Shown in pieces: positions 39,513-43,589 of a DNA stretch of 64,000 nucleotides. Positions within the stretch are counted from its first letter, which is position 1, and every line of letters begins with the position of its first letter. The translations under genes and the position numbers were made by a program. The stretch comes from Marmoricola sp. Lineage in GTDB: Bacteria > Actinomycetota > Actinomycetes > Propionibacteriales > Nocardioidaceae. The notes under the pieces were generated by a model. The model was not told where the DNA came from. It saw only the letters and a program-made list of their open reading frames with translations, and did no database searches. The stretch is taken from NCBI GenBank assembly GCA_025964775.1, contig JAOPYE010000004.1, positions 62,001 through 126,000 of the forward strand, read 5' to 3'.

Positions 39513-40022
39513 TCAGTTCACGTCGATCTCGATCGCACCGGTGAGCCGGCTCAGTTCGTCGTACGTCGTGGAGAAGACGGCTGCCGGGTGGCCGGCGGCG
39601 GCCCAGATCACCTCGTAGCGCCGCAAGGTCGGGTCGAGGTAGGTCGGGATCGGGACGGGATGCGCGATCGGCGAGACGCCGCCGATGACCTGGCCGGTCG
39701 TCTCCTTGACGAACTCCGGCTTCGCGCGCCGCAGGTCGGCAACTCCGATCCGGGCGGCGGCCAACGACACGTCGACCCGGTGTGCGCCCGAGGTGAGGAT
39801 CAGGATCGGCTGATCCGTGCCATCTGCGCCCGGCGCAGCGAAGAGAAGGCTGTTCGCGATGGCGCCGACCTCGCAGCCCAGTGCCTCGGCCGCCAGCGCG
39901 GCCGTGTGCACCGAGTCGGGCAGGAGCACGATCCGGCCCTGTCCGCCGAGGTCGCCCAAACGGGCCCGGAAGGACGCGATCGACGGGTGTTCACCAGCCG
40001 CTGCGCCGGTCGTCTCAGCCAT
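39513..40022 (-). CDS. YbaK/EbsC-family aminoacyl-tRNA deacylase
   Basis: A 169-aa protein of the YbaK/ProX editing fold, which hydrolyses mischarged tRNA such as Cys-tRNA(Pro). TAALAAEALGCEVGAIANSLLF, the catalytic Lys region LRRAKPEFVKETTG and GQVIGGVSPIAHP match the family. It starts at a leaderless ATG and ends two bases before the ArsC-like gene, so the two are co-transcribed. Confidence 0.88.
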   Translation of the reverse strand: MAETTGAAAGEHPSIASFRARLGDLGGQGRIVLLPDSVHTAALAAEALGCEVGAIANSLLFAAPGADGTDQPILILTSGAHRVDVSLAAARIGVADLRRAKPEFVKETTGQVIGGVSPIAHPVPIPTYLDPTLRRYEVIWAAAGHPAAVFSTTYDELSRLTGAIEIDVN

Positions 40023-40057: not shown

Positions 40058-40088
40058 TTGACGGGCTGTCGGTCCTGAGGTGTACCTT
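40058..40088 (+). promoter_or_regulatory. Candidate promoter of the DinB operon
   Basis: TTGACG (40058-40063) and TACCTT (40083-40088) are 19 bp apart. The LexA box begins eight bases after the -10, where it would block initiation. Confidence 0.45.
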
Positions 40089-40096
40089 GGAGTCAT

Positions 40097-40112
40097 TCGA
40101 ACATCTGTTCGA
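40097..40112. promoter_or_regulatory. LexA (SOS) box
   Basis: TCGAAC-ATCT-GTTCGA is a perfect match to the actinobacterial LexA operator (TCGAAC N4 GTTCGA). It lies 107 bp before the first gene of the DinB operon, and is also near the divergent YbaK-like gene. Confidence 0.88.
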
Positions 40113-40120
40113 AGTCGGCT

Positions 40121-40157
40121 CCGGTGGAAGGTGACTTCGACCCCCATCTTCCACCGG
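40121..40157 (+). other. Long perfect hairpin in the leader of the DinB operon
   Basis: CCGGTGGAAG (40121-40130) pairs perfectly with CTTCCACCGG (40148-40157) around a 17-base loop. It lies between the LexA box and the first start codon. No T-run follows, so it is not a classical terminator. It may stabilise or gate the leader RNA. Confidence 0.6.
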
Positions 40158-40218
40158 GGCACCGACAAGGGGTCCGAGGCCGCGACATCGAGTACGGCGA
40201 GATCGAGAGGAGCAGACA

Positions 40219-40608
40219 GTGCGACGGTATGACGACCTGGTGGAGGTACGGAAAGGTCCGGTTCCCGGCTACGGCGCGGACGGGCCGGACGGTTTCGGGG
40301 ACCTGATGCTGGCGACACGGCCCGACGAACTCCCGGCCAGCGAAGCGCCGCAGCAGTTCCTCTGGCGCGGCCGGCTCTGGCAGGTCCGCTCGATCGTGGC
40401 CCACTGGGTCGAGACCGGCGCCTGGTGGCTGCGACGTCCCGAGGAGCGGCCGGGCGCTTCCGAGCTGATCCGGGAACGCGAGGTCTGGCGGGTGACGGCG
40501 GCCCGTGGCCGCGCCGTGGCCACGAACGACGATCCCGGCTTCGGCGTCTTCGACCTGGCCTTCGACCCGGCTGAGGGCCTTTGGTGCCTCGCCGGTTCGC
40601 TGGACTGA
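40219..40608 (+). CDS. DUF6504 family protein
   Basis: A 129-aa protein (YDDLVEVRKGPVPG, then PQQFLWRGRLWQVRSIVAHWVETGAWW and EVWRVTAARG) of the actinobacterial DUF6504 family, which is commonly found beside DinB. No known reaction. GTG 40219 follows GAGAGGAG by six bases. It is first in the LexA-controlled operon. Confidence 0.85.
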   Translation: MRRYDDLVEVRKGPVPGYGADGPDGFGDLMLATRPDELPASEAPQQFLWRGRLWQVRSIVAHWVETGAWWLRRPEERPGASELIREREVWRVTAARGRAVATNDDPGFGVFDLAFDPAEGLWCLAGSLD

Positions 40609-40620
40609 GGGCGAGTCGTG

Positions 40621-41034
40621 ATGACCCACAGCCTGCAGCTTCCTGCCGCGACGCACTCCTACCTCGAACGGTCTGCCGAGTCCCTGCGCGAGGCGATCAC
40701 CTGCTCCGACGTCCCGCAGCGCTATGCGCTGGCGCACGTCGCAGCACTGCGTGCAACCGCGGCCCTGCTGGCAGCCCGTGCACAACCGCTCCCGGTGGCC
40801 AGGCGACGCCAGAAGAACGCCTGGGTGTTGCTGACCGAGGTCGCGCCGGAGTTCGCCGAATGGGCGACCTTCTTCTCCTCGGGCGCCCAGAAGCGCTCGG
40901 CGGCAGAGGCCGGGTCCCGGCGTGCCGTGACCGAACGCGAGGCCGACGACCTGGTGCGGGATGCCGACCGGTTCCTCGCCCTGGTCGAGACCGCGCTCGG
41001 GTTGACCGGACACGCTCCGTTCCGGGTGGCTTGA
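40621..41034 (+). CDS. SAV_6107-family HEPN domain protein
   Basis: A 137-aa all-helical protein of the SAV_6107 HEPN family. The HEPN ribonuclease signature Rx4H is intact: Arg34 to His39 in QRYALAH. HEPN proteins with this motif are usually RNases in toxin or defence systems. Here the gene sits between DUF6504 and DinB genes under a LexA box. GTG 40618 is an alternative start one codon earlier. No antitoxin (MNT) gene is adjacent. Confidence 0.83.
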   Translation: MTHSLQLPAATHSYLERSAESLREAITCSDVPQRYALAHVAALRATAALLAARAQPLPVARRRQKNAWVLLTEVAPEFAEWATFFSSGAQKRSAAEAGSRRAVTEREADDLVRDADRFLALVETALGLTGHAPFRVA

Positions 41035-41058
41035 CGGCGGTGCCTGGCGCCGCAGCAC

Positions 41059-41071
41059 TAGGGTTCGGGGC
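41059..41071 (+). promoter_or_regulatory. Leaderless -10 element of the methyltransferase gene
   Basis: TAGGGT (41059-41064) ends seven bases before the ATG at 41072, suggesting a second promoter inside the DinB operon. Confidence 0.5.
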
Positions 41072-41785
41072 ATGGAGCGACCCCTGGAACGCCGTGCTTC
41101 GGTCCGTACTGCCGTGGTCTGGGACGCATGCCGAGTCCACCTCGAGTCCCGTGCCGGACAGACGGTCGTCGACATCGGGGGCGGCACCGGCGGGCTGGCT
41201 GTCCGCGTCGCCGAGCTCGGCCATCAGGTCACCGTCATCGACCCGAGCCCGGACGCGCTGGCGGCACTGGCCCGACGGGCATCCGAGCACGGCGTCGCCG
41301 ACCGGATCACCGGTCAGCAGGGCGAGCTCGCCTCGCTGCCCGATCTGGTCGCGGCCGGGTCGGCGGACCTGGTCCTGTGCCACGAAGTGCTCGGTCTCGT
41401 CGACGACCCGGCCGCGGCGCTGGCGACGATCGGCCGGGTGCTGCGACCCGGGGGAGTCCTCAGCCTGCTGGTCAGCCAGCGCCACGCAGCGGTCCTGGCC
41501 AGGGCCATGGCCGGCCACTTCGTCCAGGCGCGGGCGGTCCTCGACGGAGAGGTCGCCGGTGAGCGGCGGTTCGTCGCCGACGAGCTCGCCGACCTGCTGG
41601 CCGCCTCCGGTTTCACGCTCACCGAGATGCACGCTGTCCGGGTCTTCACCGATGTCGTCCCGTCCTCCCTGCTCGACCTCGAGCCGGGAGCGGTCGAGAG
41701 CCTGCTCGAGCTCGAACGCGCGGTCGCCCGGCGTCCGGAGTACCGCACGCTGGGCGCCCAGCTGCACACCCTCGCCACCCGCTGA
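41072..41785 (+). CDS. SAM-dependent methyltransferase, DinB-associated
   Basis: A 237-aa class I methyltransferase with motif I VVDIGGGTGGLAVRVA, the acidic motif II VTVIDPSPDALAAL and motif IV DLVLCHEVLGLVDDP. The substrate is unknown; similarity to the CmoA/UbiE group is general. It lies between HEPN and dinB genes, 24 bases before dinB, and is probably expressed with them as well as from its own leaderless promoter. Confidence 0.85.
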   Translation: MERPLERRASVRTAVVWDACRVHLESRAGQTVVDIGGGTGGLAVRVAELGHQVTVIDPSPDALAALARRASEHGVADRITGQQGELASLPDLVAAGSADLVLCHEVLGLVDDPAAALATIGRVLRPGGVLSLLVSQRHAAVLARAMAGHFVQARAVLDGEVAGERRFVADELADLLAASGFTLTEMHAVRVFTDVVPSSLLDLEPGAVESLLELERAVARRPEYRTLGAQLHTLATR

Positions 41786-41809
41786 GGCGGCGCCCGGCCG
41801 CGAGGCGCG

Positions 41810-43003
41810 ATGAACGACGGGTCGCTGGGATGCCCGTTGCTCCACGTCGACATGGATGCGTTCTATGCGTCGGTGGCGTTGCGGGAACACCCCGAGCTCG
41901 TCGATGTGCCCGTGGTCGTCGGCGGTGGACATCGGGGCGTGGTGCTGTCGGCGAACTATCCGGCGCGACGACTCGGCATCCGATCCGGGATGTCGGGGAC
42001 CGAGGCCGCTCGGCTCTGCCCGCAGGCCGTTCGCCTGGCGCCGGACTTCGAGGCGTTCGAGTCGGTGTCGCGCTCGGTGATGGAGACCTTCCGCCAGGTC
42101 ACCCCGCTGGTCGAGGCGTACTCGCTGGACGAGGCTTTCCTCGACGTGTCCGGATCGAGGCGGGAGCGCGGTACCCCGCTGCAGATCGCGGAGTGGCTGC
42201 GCGCTCGGATCCACGACGAGCAGCAGATCACCTGCTCGGTGGGTCTGGCCGCCAGTGTCTCGGTCGCCAAGCTGGCGAGCAGGCGCGCGAAGCCCGACGG
42301 CGTCCTGGTGATTCCGCCCGAGCGGGTGATCGAGTACCTGCATCCGCTCGACGTCGGTGAGCTGTTCGGCGTCGGCGCCAAGACCCGGGCACGCCTGCAT
42401 CGGCTCGGCCTGGAAACCGTCGGCGACGTCGCGAAGATCCCGTTGCCGACCTTGCGGCAGATGGTGGGCCAGGCCTCCGGCCTGCACCTGCACCAGCTCG
42501 CGTGGGGCACCGACCGGAGGACGCTGGTGCCGCGTCGTTCCGACGACGACCCCGAACGCAGCATGGGAGCCGAGGAGACGTTCTCGCGCGACACCGCGGA
42601 TCCTGCTGTGATCCGCCGCGAGCTGCTTCGTCTCGCGACCCGGGTCACCCGCCGGATGCGGCGAGCCGGGCTGTCGGGCCGGACGGTCGCCATCCGGGTC
42701 CGCTACAGCGACTTCACCACCCTGACGCGCTCGCACACCGCGCCGGATCCGACGGACGTCACCAGCGAGGTCCACGCCGAGGCCGTCCGGCTCTTCGAGG
42801 CGCTGCGTACGACTCGCCGGATCCGGCTGGTCGGTGTCCGGGTGGAGGGCCTGCGGCCCCGGGCCGGGACCCAGCGGCAGCTCGAGCTCGGCGCCCGTGA
42901 GCGGGGCTGGGCCGAGGCCGATCGCGCCGTCGATGCGGCGGCGGCCCGTTTCGGTGGAGGTGCCGTACGTCCGGCGACGTTGTTCGGCGGGAGTCGTCCC
43001 TGA
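41810..43003 (+). CDS. dinB: DNA polymerase IV
   Basis: A 397-aa Y-family translesion polymerase. Metal-binding residues are Asp14 (HVDMDAFYASV) and Asp107-Glu108 (YSLDEAFLDVS). The steric-gate position is Tyr19, which excludes ribonucleotides, unlike mycobacterial DinB2. SVGLAASVSVAKLASRRAKPDG, the helix-hairpin-helix GVGAKTRARLHRLGLETVGD and a little-finger domain follow. The C-terminus lacks a clear QLxLF clamp motif, ending TLFGGSRP. It is in the LexA-linked operon. Confidence 0.95.
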   Translation: MNDGSLGCPLLHVDMDAFYASVALREHPELVDVPVVVGGGHRGVVLSANYPARRLGIRSGMSGTEAARLCPQAVRLAPDFEAFESVSRSVMETFRQVTPLVEAYSLDEAFLDVSGSRRERGTPLQIAEWLRARIHDEQQITCSVGLAASVSVAKLASRRAKPDGVLVIPPERVIEYLHPLDVGELFGVGAKTRARLHRLGLETVGDVAKIPLPTLRQMVGQASGLHLHQLAWGTDRRTLVPRRSDDDPERSMGAEETFSRDTADPAVIRRELLRLATRVTRRMRRAGLSGRTVAIRVRYSDFTTLTRSHTAPDPTDVTSEVHAEAVRLFEALRTTRRIRLVGVRVEGLRPRAGTQRQLELGARERGWAEADRAVDAAAARFGGGAVRPATLFGGSRP

Positions 43004-43118: not shown

Positions 43119-43589
43119 GTGCCGCTCTCGGAAGAGGAACTGCGCCTGCTCGAACAGATGGAGCGCGCCCTCGCAGCCGAGGACCCGAAGTTCGTTTCTG
43201 CGCTGCAGGGACGGACGCTGCGACGGGTCGCGCGGATGCGCTCGGCGGCTGCCGGCCTGGTCTTCCTCGGTGGGATCGCGATGCTGATGGGTGGCGCGGT
43301 TTCGGAGATGTTGTGGCTCGGCGTCCTGGGCTTCCTGGTGATGCTGTCCTCCGCGATGATCGGCCTGGCCGCGTGGCGTGGGCATCGCGTGCCGGACGAG
43401 CGACCGTCCTCGCCCGACGCACTCTTCGACTTCGACGACCACCCGCACCGTTTCGAGGTCCTCGACGGCGGCCGGGCCCCGAAGCCGAAGCGGCAGCGTC
43501 GTCCCCGTCGTCAGGCGGCCAACAAGAGCGGCACCTTCATGCAGCGCATCGAACAGCGCTGGCAGCACCGTCGGGACCAGGGCTTCTGA
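43119..43589 (+). CDS. DUF3040 membrane protein
   Basis: A 156-aa protein with the diagnostic start VPLSEEELRLLEQMERALAAEDPKFVSAL, two membrane helices (AAAGLVFLGGIAMLMGG and LWLGVLGFLVMLSSAMIGLAAW) and a long basic tail. It is the Rv2169c type found by the mraZ cluster in actinobacteria. GTG 43119 follows GGGAGGA. It faces converging TgpA-type gene. Confidence 0.88.
   Translation: MPLSEEELRLLEQMERALAAEDPKFVSALQGRTLRRVARMRSAAAGLVFLGGIAMLMGGAVSEMLWLGVLGFLVMLSSAMIGLAAWRGHRVPDERPSSPDALFDFDDHPHRFEVLDGGRAPKPKRQRRPRRQAANKSGTFMQRIEQRWQHRRDQGF

Follow-up and report, generated by a model that had tools for sequence, protein, structure and literature searches.

What a HEPN-domain protein contributes to a putative SOS operon ending in a translesion polymerase is the question raised by a locus in a 64,000-nucleotide stretch of Marmoricola sp. 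(contig JAOPYE010000004.1, positions 62,001 to 126,000), here termed the window. As originally predicted, a perfect LexA box of the form TCGAAC-ATCT-GTTCGA lies at 40097-40112, ahead of genes for a DUF6504 protein, a HEPN_SAV_6107 protein, a methyltransferase and DinB; the four genes follow in this order on the plus strand, and the gaps between them are indeed short (9, 37 and 24 bp, respectively). Together, box and genes are likely to constitute one SOS-induced translesion-synthesis operon. The original prediction went further, however, and proposed an SOS-induced RNase that couples DNA damage to RNA cleavage, a view that the evidence given below does not support. Instead, we assign a probability of roughly 55% to the reading that the HEPN and DUF6504 proteins of an SOS translesion operon serve error-prone polymerases as helpers with no enzymatic activity of their own, and not as an RNase.

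The box is the sole zero-mismatch TCGAACN4GTTCGA site in the window, and a search with its exact 16-mer, allowing up to three mismatches, returns four matches there where 0.37 would be expected; the box accounts for two of them, one per strand. The genome to which the window belongs (3.93 Mb) has a lexA gene preceded by three one-mismatch boxes, and carries 10 perfect TCGAACN4GTTCGA sites, compared with two for the reversed pattern. One other perfect site lies upstream of imuB-dnaE2, and genes at or near such sites include those for a DUF222 protein, an AlkB-like oxygenase and a DprA-like protein. At locus L001 a DUF222 gene, identified by Pfam, directly follows a perfect LexA box, and at L004, L006 and L008 boxes lie inside open frames of similar look.

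Conservation of the box was assessed upstream of HEPN_SAV_6107 genes, beginning with a Nocardioidaceae set made up of the best 80 of 167 related loci found. Within 800 bp upstream of the HEPN gene, the box is perfect at 71 of the 80 loci, carries one mismatch at seven and two mismatches at two, and the reversed pattern with up to one mismatch occurs at none (0/80); these counts are anchored on the start of the profile match, and anchoring on the longest open frame gives 64/80 perfect boxes. At 12 loci the box starts 56-200 bp ahead of HEPN. A wider set (n=157) adds 77 loci hand-picked for spread from other families, including 15 of the 15 positives in family f2, seven from f3/f4, six of 18 from the Streptomyces-like f6, 20 of 186 from f7 and 20 of 80 from the Corynebacterium-like genus g265; loci L226-L228, the last of which has no HEPN match, were excluded from the box count. 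A box with at most one mismatch precedes 117 of these 157 loci, versus a single one for the reversed pattern. By group, and with the longest-open-frame anchor, such boxes are found at 71/80 loci in the Nocardioidaceae, 14/15 in f2, 7/7 in f3/f4, 3/5 in f8-f13 and 4/4 in f9. They are found at 11/20 loci in f7 (reversed control 1/20 with up to two mismatches) and at 7/20 in g265, where 14/20 loci have a box with up to two mismatches (reversed control 0/20). In f7 and g265, 38 of the 40 loci have no DinB or methyltransferase match by HEPN, which is directly followed by DUF3040, and the box persists at many loci where HEPN stands alone. Since the box is conserved in the Nocardioidaceae and in several other actinobacterial families, HEPN-alone loci included, LexA control of the HEPN gene is supported. 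A regulatory connection of LexA type between the HEPN gene and translesion polymerases is well supported, and it is probably general in these families.

The protein family itself is widespread, with PF18726 matches in 96 of the 147 genomes of the order and 48 of the 396 of the phylum, in 186/201 genomes of f7 and 80/81 of g265, and in none of the 14 genomes of genus g23 within f7. A match is also present in the Corynebacterium glutamicum control genome. A MraZ motif lies behind the HEPN-DUF3040 pair at 17/20 loci in f7 and 19/20 in g265 (36/40 together), falling 1.3-2.2 kb past the HEPN start at those 19 of the 20 g265 loci. In the available text of PMC5055667, cg2378 is the mraZ gene of C. 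glutamicum, and the same text places cg2381 in the LexA regulon and among the genes that rise with ciprofloxacin (M 3.86); given its position near mraZ, cg2381 is very probably the HEPN_SAV_6107 gene. In the light of that report, the earlier statement that the association of DUF6504, HEPN and DinB is known solely as gene neighbourhood was too strong.

A DnaE2 of about 1200 aa sits between HEPN and the methyltransferase in many relatives, and dnaE2 follows HEPN at 49 of the 76 Nocardioidaceae loci with enough downstream sequence. Where dnaE2 is present and the upstream side could be seen, DUF6504 accompanies it at 47/47 loci, versus 16/27 without dnaE2; at the genome level the corresponding figures are 28/28 and 22/42, based on 70 of the 96 HEPN-positive genomes of the order (the 26 omitted, mostly of family f3, lack locus sequence). 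With ImuB called at E 1e-20, dnaE2 occurs within 1300 nt past HEPN in 18/23 ImuB-less versus 7/47 ImuB-positive genomes (Fisher p 3e-7, ignoring descent), and three further ImuB-less genomes with dnaE2 at 1329-2155 nt bring the former to 21/23 (Fisher p 6e-10). Of the 40 ImuB-positive negatives, 23 were viewed over less than 1.7 kb, 10 of these having the methyltransferase directly behind HEPN; among genomes viewed over at least 2.6 kb, dnaE2 stands behind HEPN in 17/18 ImuB-less versus 6/23 ImuB-positive genomes. The Marmoricola genome encodes its own DnaE2 in a separate imuB-dnaE2 cassette (G000:C52:191605-195701, loci L009, L271 and L273; ImuB at 192385, DnaE2 at 194970), the upstream perfect LexA box of which is at C52:191605; its ImuB yields IMS alone in a Pfam scan, and no ImuA gene was identified with it. 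The window operon would therefore serve DinB, or DnaE2 in trans. As for DUF6504, its predicted model has a confidence (pLDDT) of 74 and returns no PDB match with E <1 in Foldseek, and a PF20114 match is found in the Caulobacter control genome.

A second conserved element follows the box. In the window, a predicted leader RNA forms a 15-pair stem (40119-40133 with 40145-40159) closed by the 11-nt loop ACTTCGACCCC, and GGGGTC at 40169-40174, downstream of the stem, could pair with the CGACCCC of the loop. By loop pattern, a hairpin with the loop TCGACCCC is found a few bases past the box at 56 of the 80 Nocardioidaceae loci. Our alignment (A4) has 46 rows, namely 44 of these 56 loci, L043 and the window; the 12 loop-positive loci omitted are mostly near-duplicates of rows in the alignment, and one of them, L080, has no clear stem. 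In the 46 copies all 15 pairs, counted on a structure read by eye off one row, present compensatory changes in both arms, the share of cells that pair is 91.7%, and covariation reaches 0.609, compared with 0.210 for shuffled and at most 0.129 for slid alignments; unaided, RNAalifold recovers 13 of the 15 pairs. After thinning to 12 copies (<80% identity), 154 of 177 cells still pair, with 43 double changes. The inner stem contains 49 GU/UG wobbles versus three AC/CA, and hence the folding strand is the plus-strand RNA. The loop-complementary GGGGTCG occurs downstream at 38 of the 56 loci, versus 1.9 expected under a shuffling that permutes single bases, and the reversed 7-mer at none.

Rfam has no match over the leader element. 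The covariance model (R1), which matches the window with 63 bits (E 1.1e-7, the window being one of the 46 rows of the model), has matches in 31 of the 147 genomes of the order, one per genome, and in 28 of the 31 the leader precedes HEPN and shares its strand. The other three (G104, G107 and G042; loci L349, L350 and L351) have no PF18726 match: in G104, which has no ImuB, the leader precedes DUF6504-DnaE2-methyltransferase-DinB, and in G107 and G042, both with ImuB, it precedes methyltransferase-DinB-DUF3040. Because these three HEPN-less genomes keep the leader before the remaining operon genes, the element, as judged by its genomic placement, belongs to the operon rather than to HEPN. It is a new covarying 5'-leader RNA of a probable SOS operon, with no Rfam match.

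Table 1. Features of the locus between positions 40058 and 43003 of the window.
Feature	Position	Strand	Details and basis
Promoter-like hexamers TTGACG and TACCTT (putative)	40058-40063 and 40083-40088	+	Spacer 19 bp; inferred from sequence inspection only
LexA (SOS) box, TCGAACATCTGTTCGA	40097-40112	.	Motif search and conservation
5'-leader RNA element	40115-40174	+	Match to model R1; covariation
DUF6504 protein	40219-40608	+	129 aa, GTG start; PF20114, E 7.9e-16; predicted all-beta
HEPN_SAV_6107 protein	40618-41034	+	138 aa; PF18726, E 3.6e-34
Class I S-adenosylmethionine-dependent methyltransferase	41072-41785	+	237 aa; Methyltransf_11, E 1.8e-18
DinB / DNA polymerase IV	41810-43003	+	397 aa; IMS, E 5.4e-48

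The coordinates of these features are collected in Table 1, where position 40058 is the initial T of the TTGACG hexamer; a strict sigma-70 scan, with spacers of 16-18, found no promoter. The box is separated from the first start codon, that of DUF6504, by 106 bp. Upstream of it lies a divergent gene with a tRNA-editing domain (39513-40022, minus strand), and DinB is followed, after 115 bp, by a DUF3040 gene at 43119. The named relatives nearest to the locus are Marmoricola and Nocardioides records. DinB has the motifs VDMDAFYAS and YSLDEAFLD, which we take to be its catalytic acidic motifs, and passes DNA polymerase IV models (376 bits against NCBIfam NF003015, cut-off 367). The methyltransferase, which accompanies DinB at many related loci, has the tRNA enzyme CmoM as its nearest NCBIfam model, at 97 bits far under the cut-off of 366.

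In the polymerase-helper reading that we favor, LexA bound to the box would block the promoter, and DNA damage would release it through RecA-driven cleavage of LexA. A second, post-transcriptional control would come from the leader hairpin, which may form a pseudoknot with the GGGGTCG downstream of it. Once made, the HEPN and DUF6504 proteins would attach to DnaE2, DinB or both, and load or regulate these polymerases, in place of the ImuA'/ImuB of the classical mutasome. Several observations weigh against this scheme. No DnaE2 is encoded between 40058 and 43003, the HEPN gene often has no DnaE2 nearby and is alone in Corynebacterium-like genomes, so that there is no strict tie to DnaE2, and the seven ImuB-positive genomes among 47 with dnaE2 behind HEPN blur the complementarity with ImuB. 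When corrected for descent with a tree built from the short HEPN proteins (14 and 13 changes; 14 pairs on all branches), the ImuB/dnaE2 association yields four supported independent pairs, too few to decide it, on average 0 changing the same way, 1.9 the opposite way and 2.1 with no difference (p 0.5). The DUF6504 protein has no significant match to the C-terminus of 31 actinobacterial ImuB in hhalign and hmmsearch comparisons. SOS control is not universal either, for a box with up to one mismatch is found at none of the six Streptomyces-like loci (L211-L216), which keep HEPN-methyltransferase-DUF3040. Finally, residues R35 and H40 of the HEPN protein are both invariant across the 80 Nocardioidaceae loci, which may be more than a purely structural role needs, and only a weak alignment (2hsb, E 0.79) places the canonical HEPN motif, discussed below.

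Actinobacterial induced mutagenesis is commonly interpreted in terms of ImuA'-ImuB-DnaE2. A more specific form of the polymerase-helper reading, which we regard as tentative and somewhat doubtful, would have the HEPN-fold protein replacing the RecA-like ImuA' as the DnaE2 loader of an ImuB-less actinobacterial mutasome, in an operon gated by LexA and by the new pseudoknot-type leader RNA. The gene order would then be LexA box, leader RNA, DUF6504, HEPN, DnaE2, methyltransferase and DinB, and a non-catalytic HEPN protein would be serving DNA synthesis. Conserved control sites and gene partners tie the orphan SAV_6107 HEPN family to induced mutagenesis, mostly where ImuB is missing; the family gains a testable role, a HEPN protein is moved away from cutting RNA and closer to the repair of DNA, and a covarying leader RNA joins an SOS operon. 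No published title on a DUF6504-HEPN_SAV_6107-methyltransferase-DinB operon and no paper on DUF6504 turned up in the literature searched, outside which subscription papers lie, and HEPN is not mentioned among the listed papers on DnaE2/ImuB/LexA mutasomes in Actinobacteria; the term HEPN does occur in two papers found on the SOS side, PMC1274311 and PMC2701414.

Other explanations can be set against the favored one. The HEPN protein might be a regulator binding nucleic acids or nucleotides, acting for instance on the leader RNA in an autoregulatory loop, or on division at the mraZ cluster as an SOS checkpoint. The leader in front of the operon and the MraZ motif shortly behind HEPN-DUF3040 in f7 and g265 speak for such a role, but G104, G107 and G042 keep the leader with no PF18726 match, and the leader is therefore independent of HEPN; we consider this explanation rather unlikely. 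It is also conceivable, if unlikely, that HEPN, methyltransferase and DUF3040 are housekeeping bystanders, an ancient block of conserved gene order close to the division cluster, and that DinB is the only meaningful SOS gene. This would fit the six of six f6 loci and the several f3 and f4 loci where the three genes occur with no DinB match, but not the 38 f7 and g265 loci lacking both DinB and methyltransferase, many of which are boxed close in front of HEPN, nor the reported induction of cg2381 as a LexA gene (PMC5055667).

The remaining alternative is an SOS-induced HEPN ribonuclease, made with DinB, that cuts tRNA or mRNA to slow growth, perhaps through a lineage-specific site formed by R93 and H40 of helix 2. 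The protein certainly belongs to the family, with 117.7 bits against a curated cut-off of 27.2, and its predicted model has the HEPN helical-bundle fold. The original prediction held that it keeps the Rx4H motif of active HEPN ribonucleases, and the string is there, as RYALAH (Arg35/His40 if numbering begins with the GTG codon at 40618, Arg34/His39 if it begins with the ATG codon at 40621). It is not in the catalytic place, however: it lies at the N-terminus of predicted helix 2 (32-54), whereas the catalytic Rx4-6H is described where helix 3 ends (PMC3710099). The canonical spot, according to the alignment to 2hsb, reads RSAAEAG from R93 and has no His, and Table 1 of the 2013 survey by Anantharaman in the same source has the SAV_6107 family as 'No' for Rx4-6H. 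It had also been suggested that orthologs mostly lacking the Arg and His would speak against an RNase, and here the families diverge. In the Mycobacteriales-like sequences, among which many loci are boxed, His40 is replaced by Tyr in 38/40 (18/20 in f7, 20/20 in g265), with His kept in 1/20 of f7, and Arg in 2/20 and His in 0/20 of g265; the Nocardioidaceae keep both residues throughout, and in other families Arg is kept in 34/37 and His in 28/37. In addition, no MNT antitoxin-like partner occurs among the eight neighbors scanned by Pfam, and PADLOC returns no match for the HEPN protein. On these grounds we discarded RYALAH as the catalytic motif, given the wrong helix, the apparent lack of His at the canonical spot and the replacement of His by Tyr in clades with a retained box, and likewise, having no PADLOC match, a role as a defense-system protein. 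The HEPN protein is thus unlikely to be an RNase, and the growth-slowing ribonuclease as a whole appears quite improbable. Separately, a KR-H-G-V-D-Y-D stretch occupies the canonical motif spot in L226, and a related one is seen in L227, both of them distant HEPN relatives outside the class (E ~1e-7).

Compared with known systems, the locus shares the HEPN fold with HEPN RNases and HEPN-MNT toxin-antitoxin pairs and differs from them in having no His at Rx4-6H and no MNT partner among the neighbors scanned. A link between DNA damage and a HEPN protein has also been drawn in Salmonella, where tRNA cleavage in the SOS response is RecA-dependent and a prophage HEPN gene is a candidate (PMC7790460, PMC9879122), so that cutting RNA during SOS is not without precedent; that protein is a different, prophage-borne, proposed endoribonuclease, and the available descriptions include no translesion polymerase operon. 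With the ImuA(')-ImuB-DnaE2 mutasome the window operon has in common a LexA-type box, a small predicted beta protein and a Y-family polymerase, and DnaE2 belongs to the gene run in 49/76 relatives. Unlike the mutasome, it carries HEPN_SAV_6107 and a methyltransferase, and has as its Y-family member a DinB that looks active, in place of the catalytically dead ImuB, with DnaE2 encoded elsewhere in the genome. With no ImuA among its four genes, the window operon resembles described mutasome variants that lack ImuA and have a small beta protein on its own, the stand-alone ImuB-C (Timinskas and Venclovas 2019, PMC6511836; Aravind 2013, PMC3765255), although the DUF6504 protein gave no significant match to actinobacterial ImuB-C; HEPN is not mentioned in the available text of PMC3765255, nor matched in that of PMC6511836. 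The LexA regulon of Streptomyces venezuelae, which includes dnaE2-dinP (PMC9380542), likewise places dnaE2 and a Y-family polymerase of an actinobacterium under SOS control, but HEPN goes unmentioned in the main text of that paper, and Streptomyces-like HEPN loci are boxed in 0/6 cases. The remaining parallel is cg2381 of C. glutamicum, which is annotated only as conserved hypothetical and whose Corynebacterium-like relatives have kept the His in 0/20 and the Arg in 2/20 cases, and which, on the other hand, very probably shares with the window gene both the HEPN family and, with its Corynebacterium-like relatives, the place near mraZ, and is reported to be under LexA control (PMC5055667).

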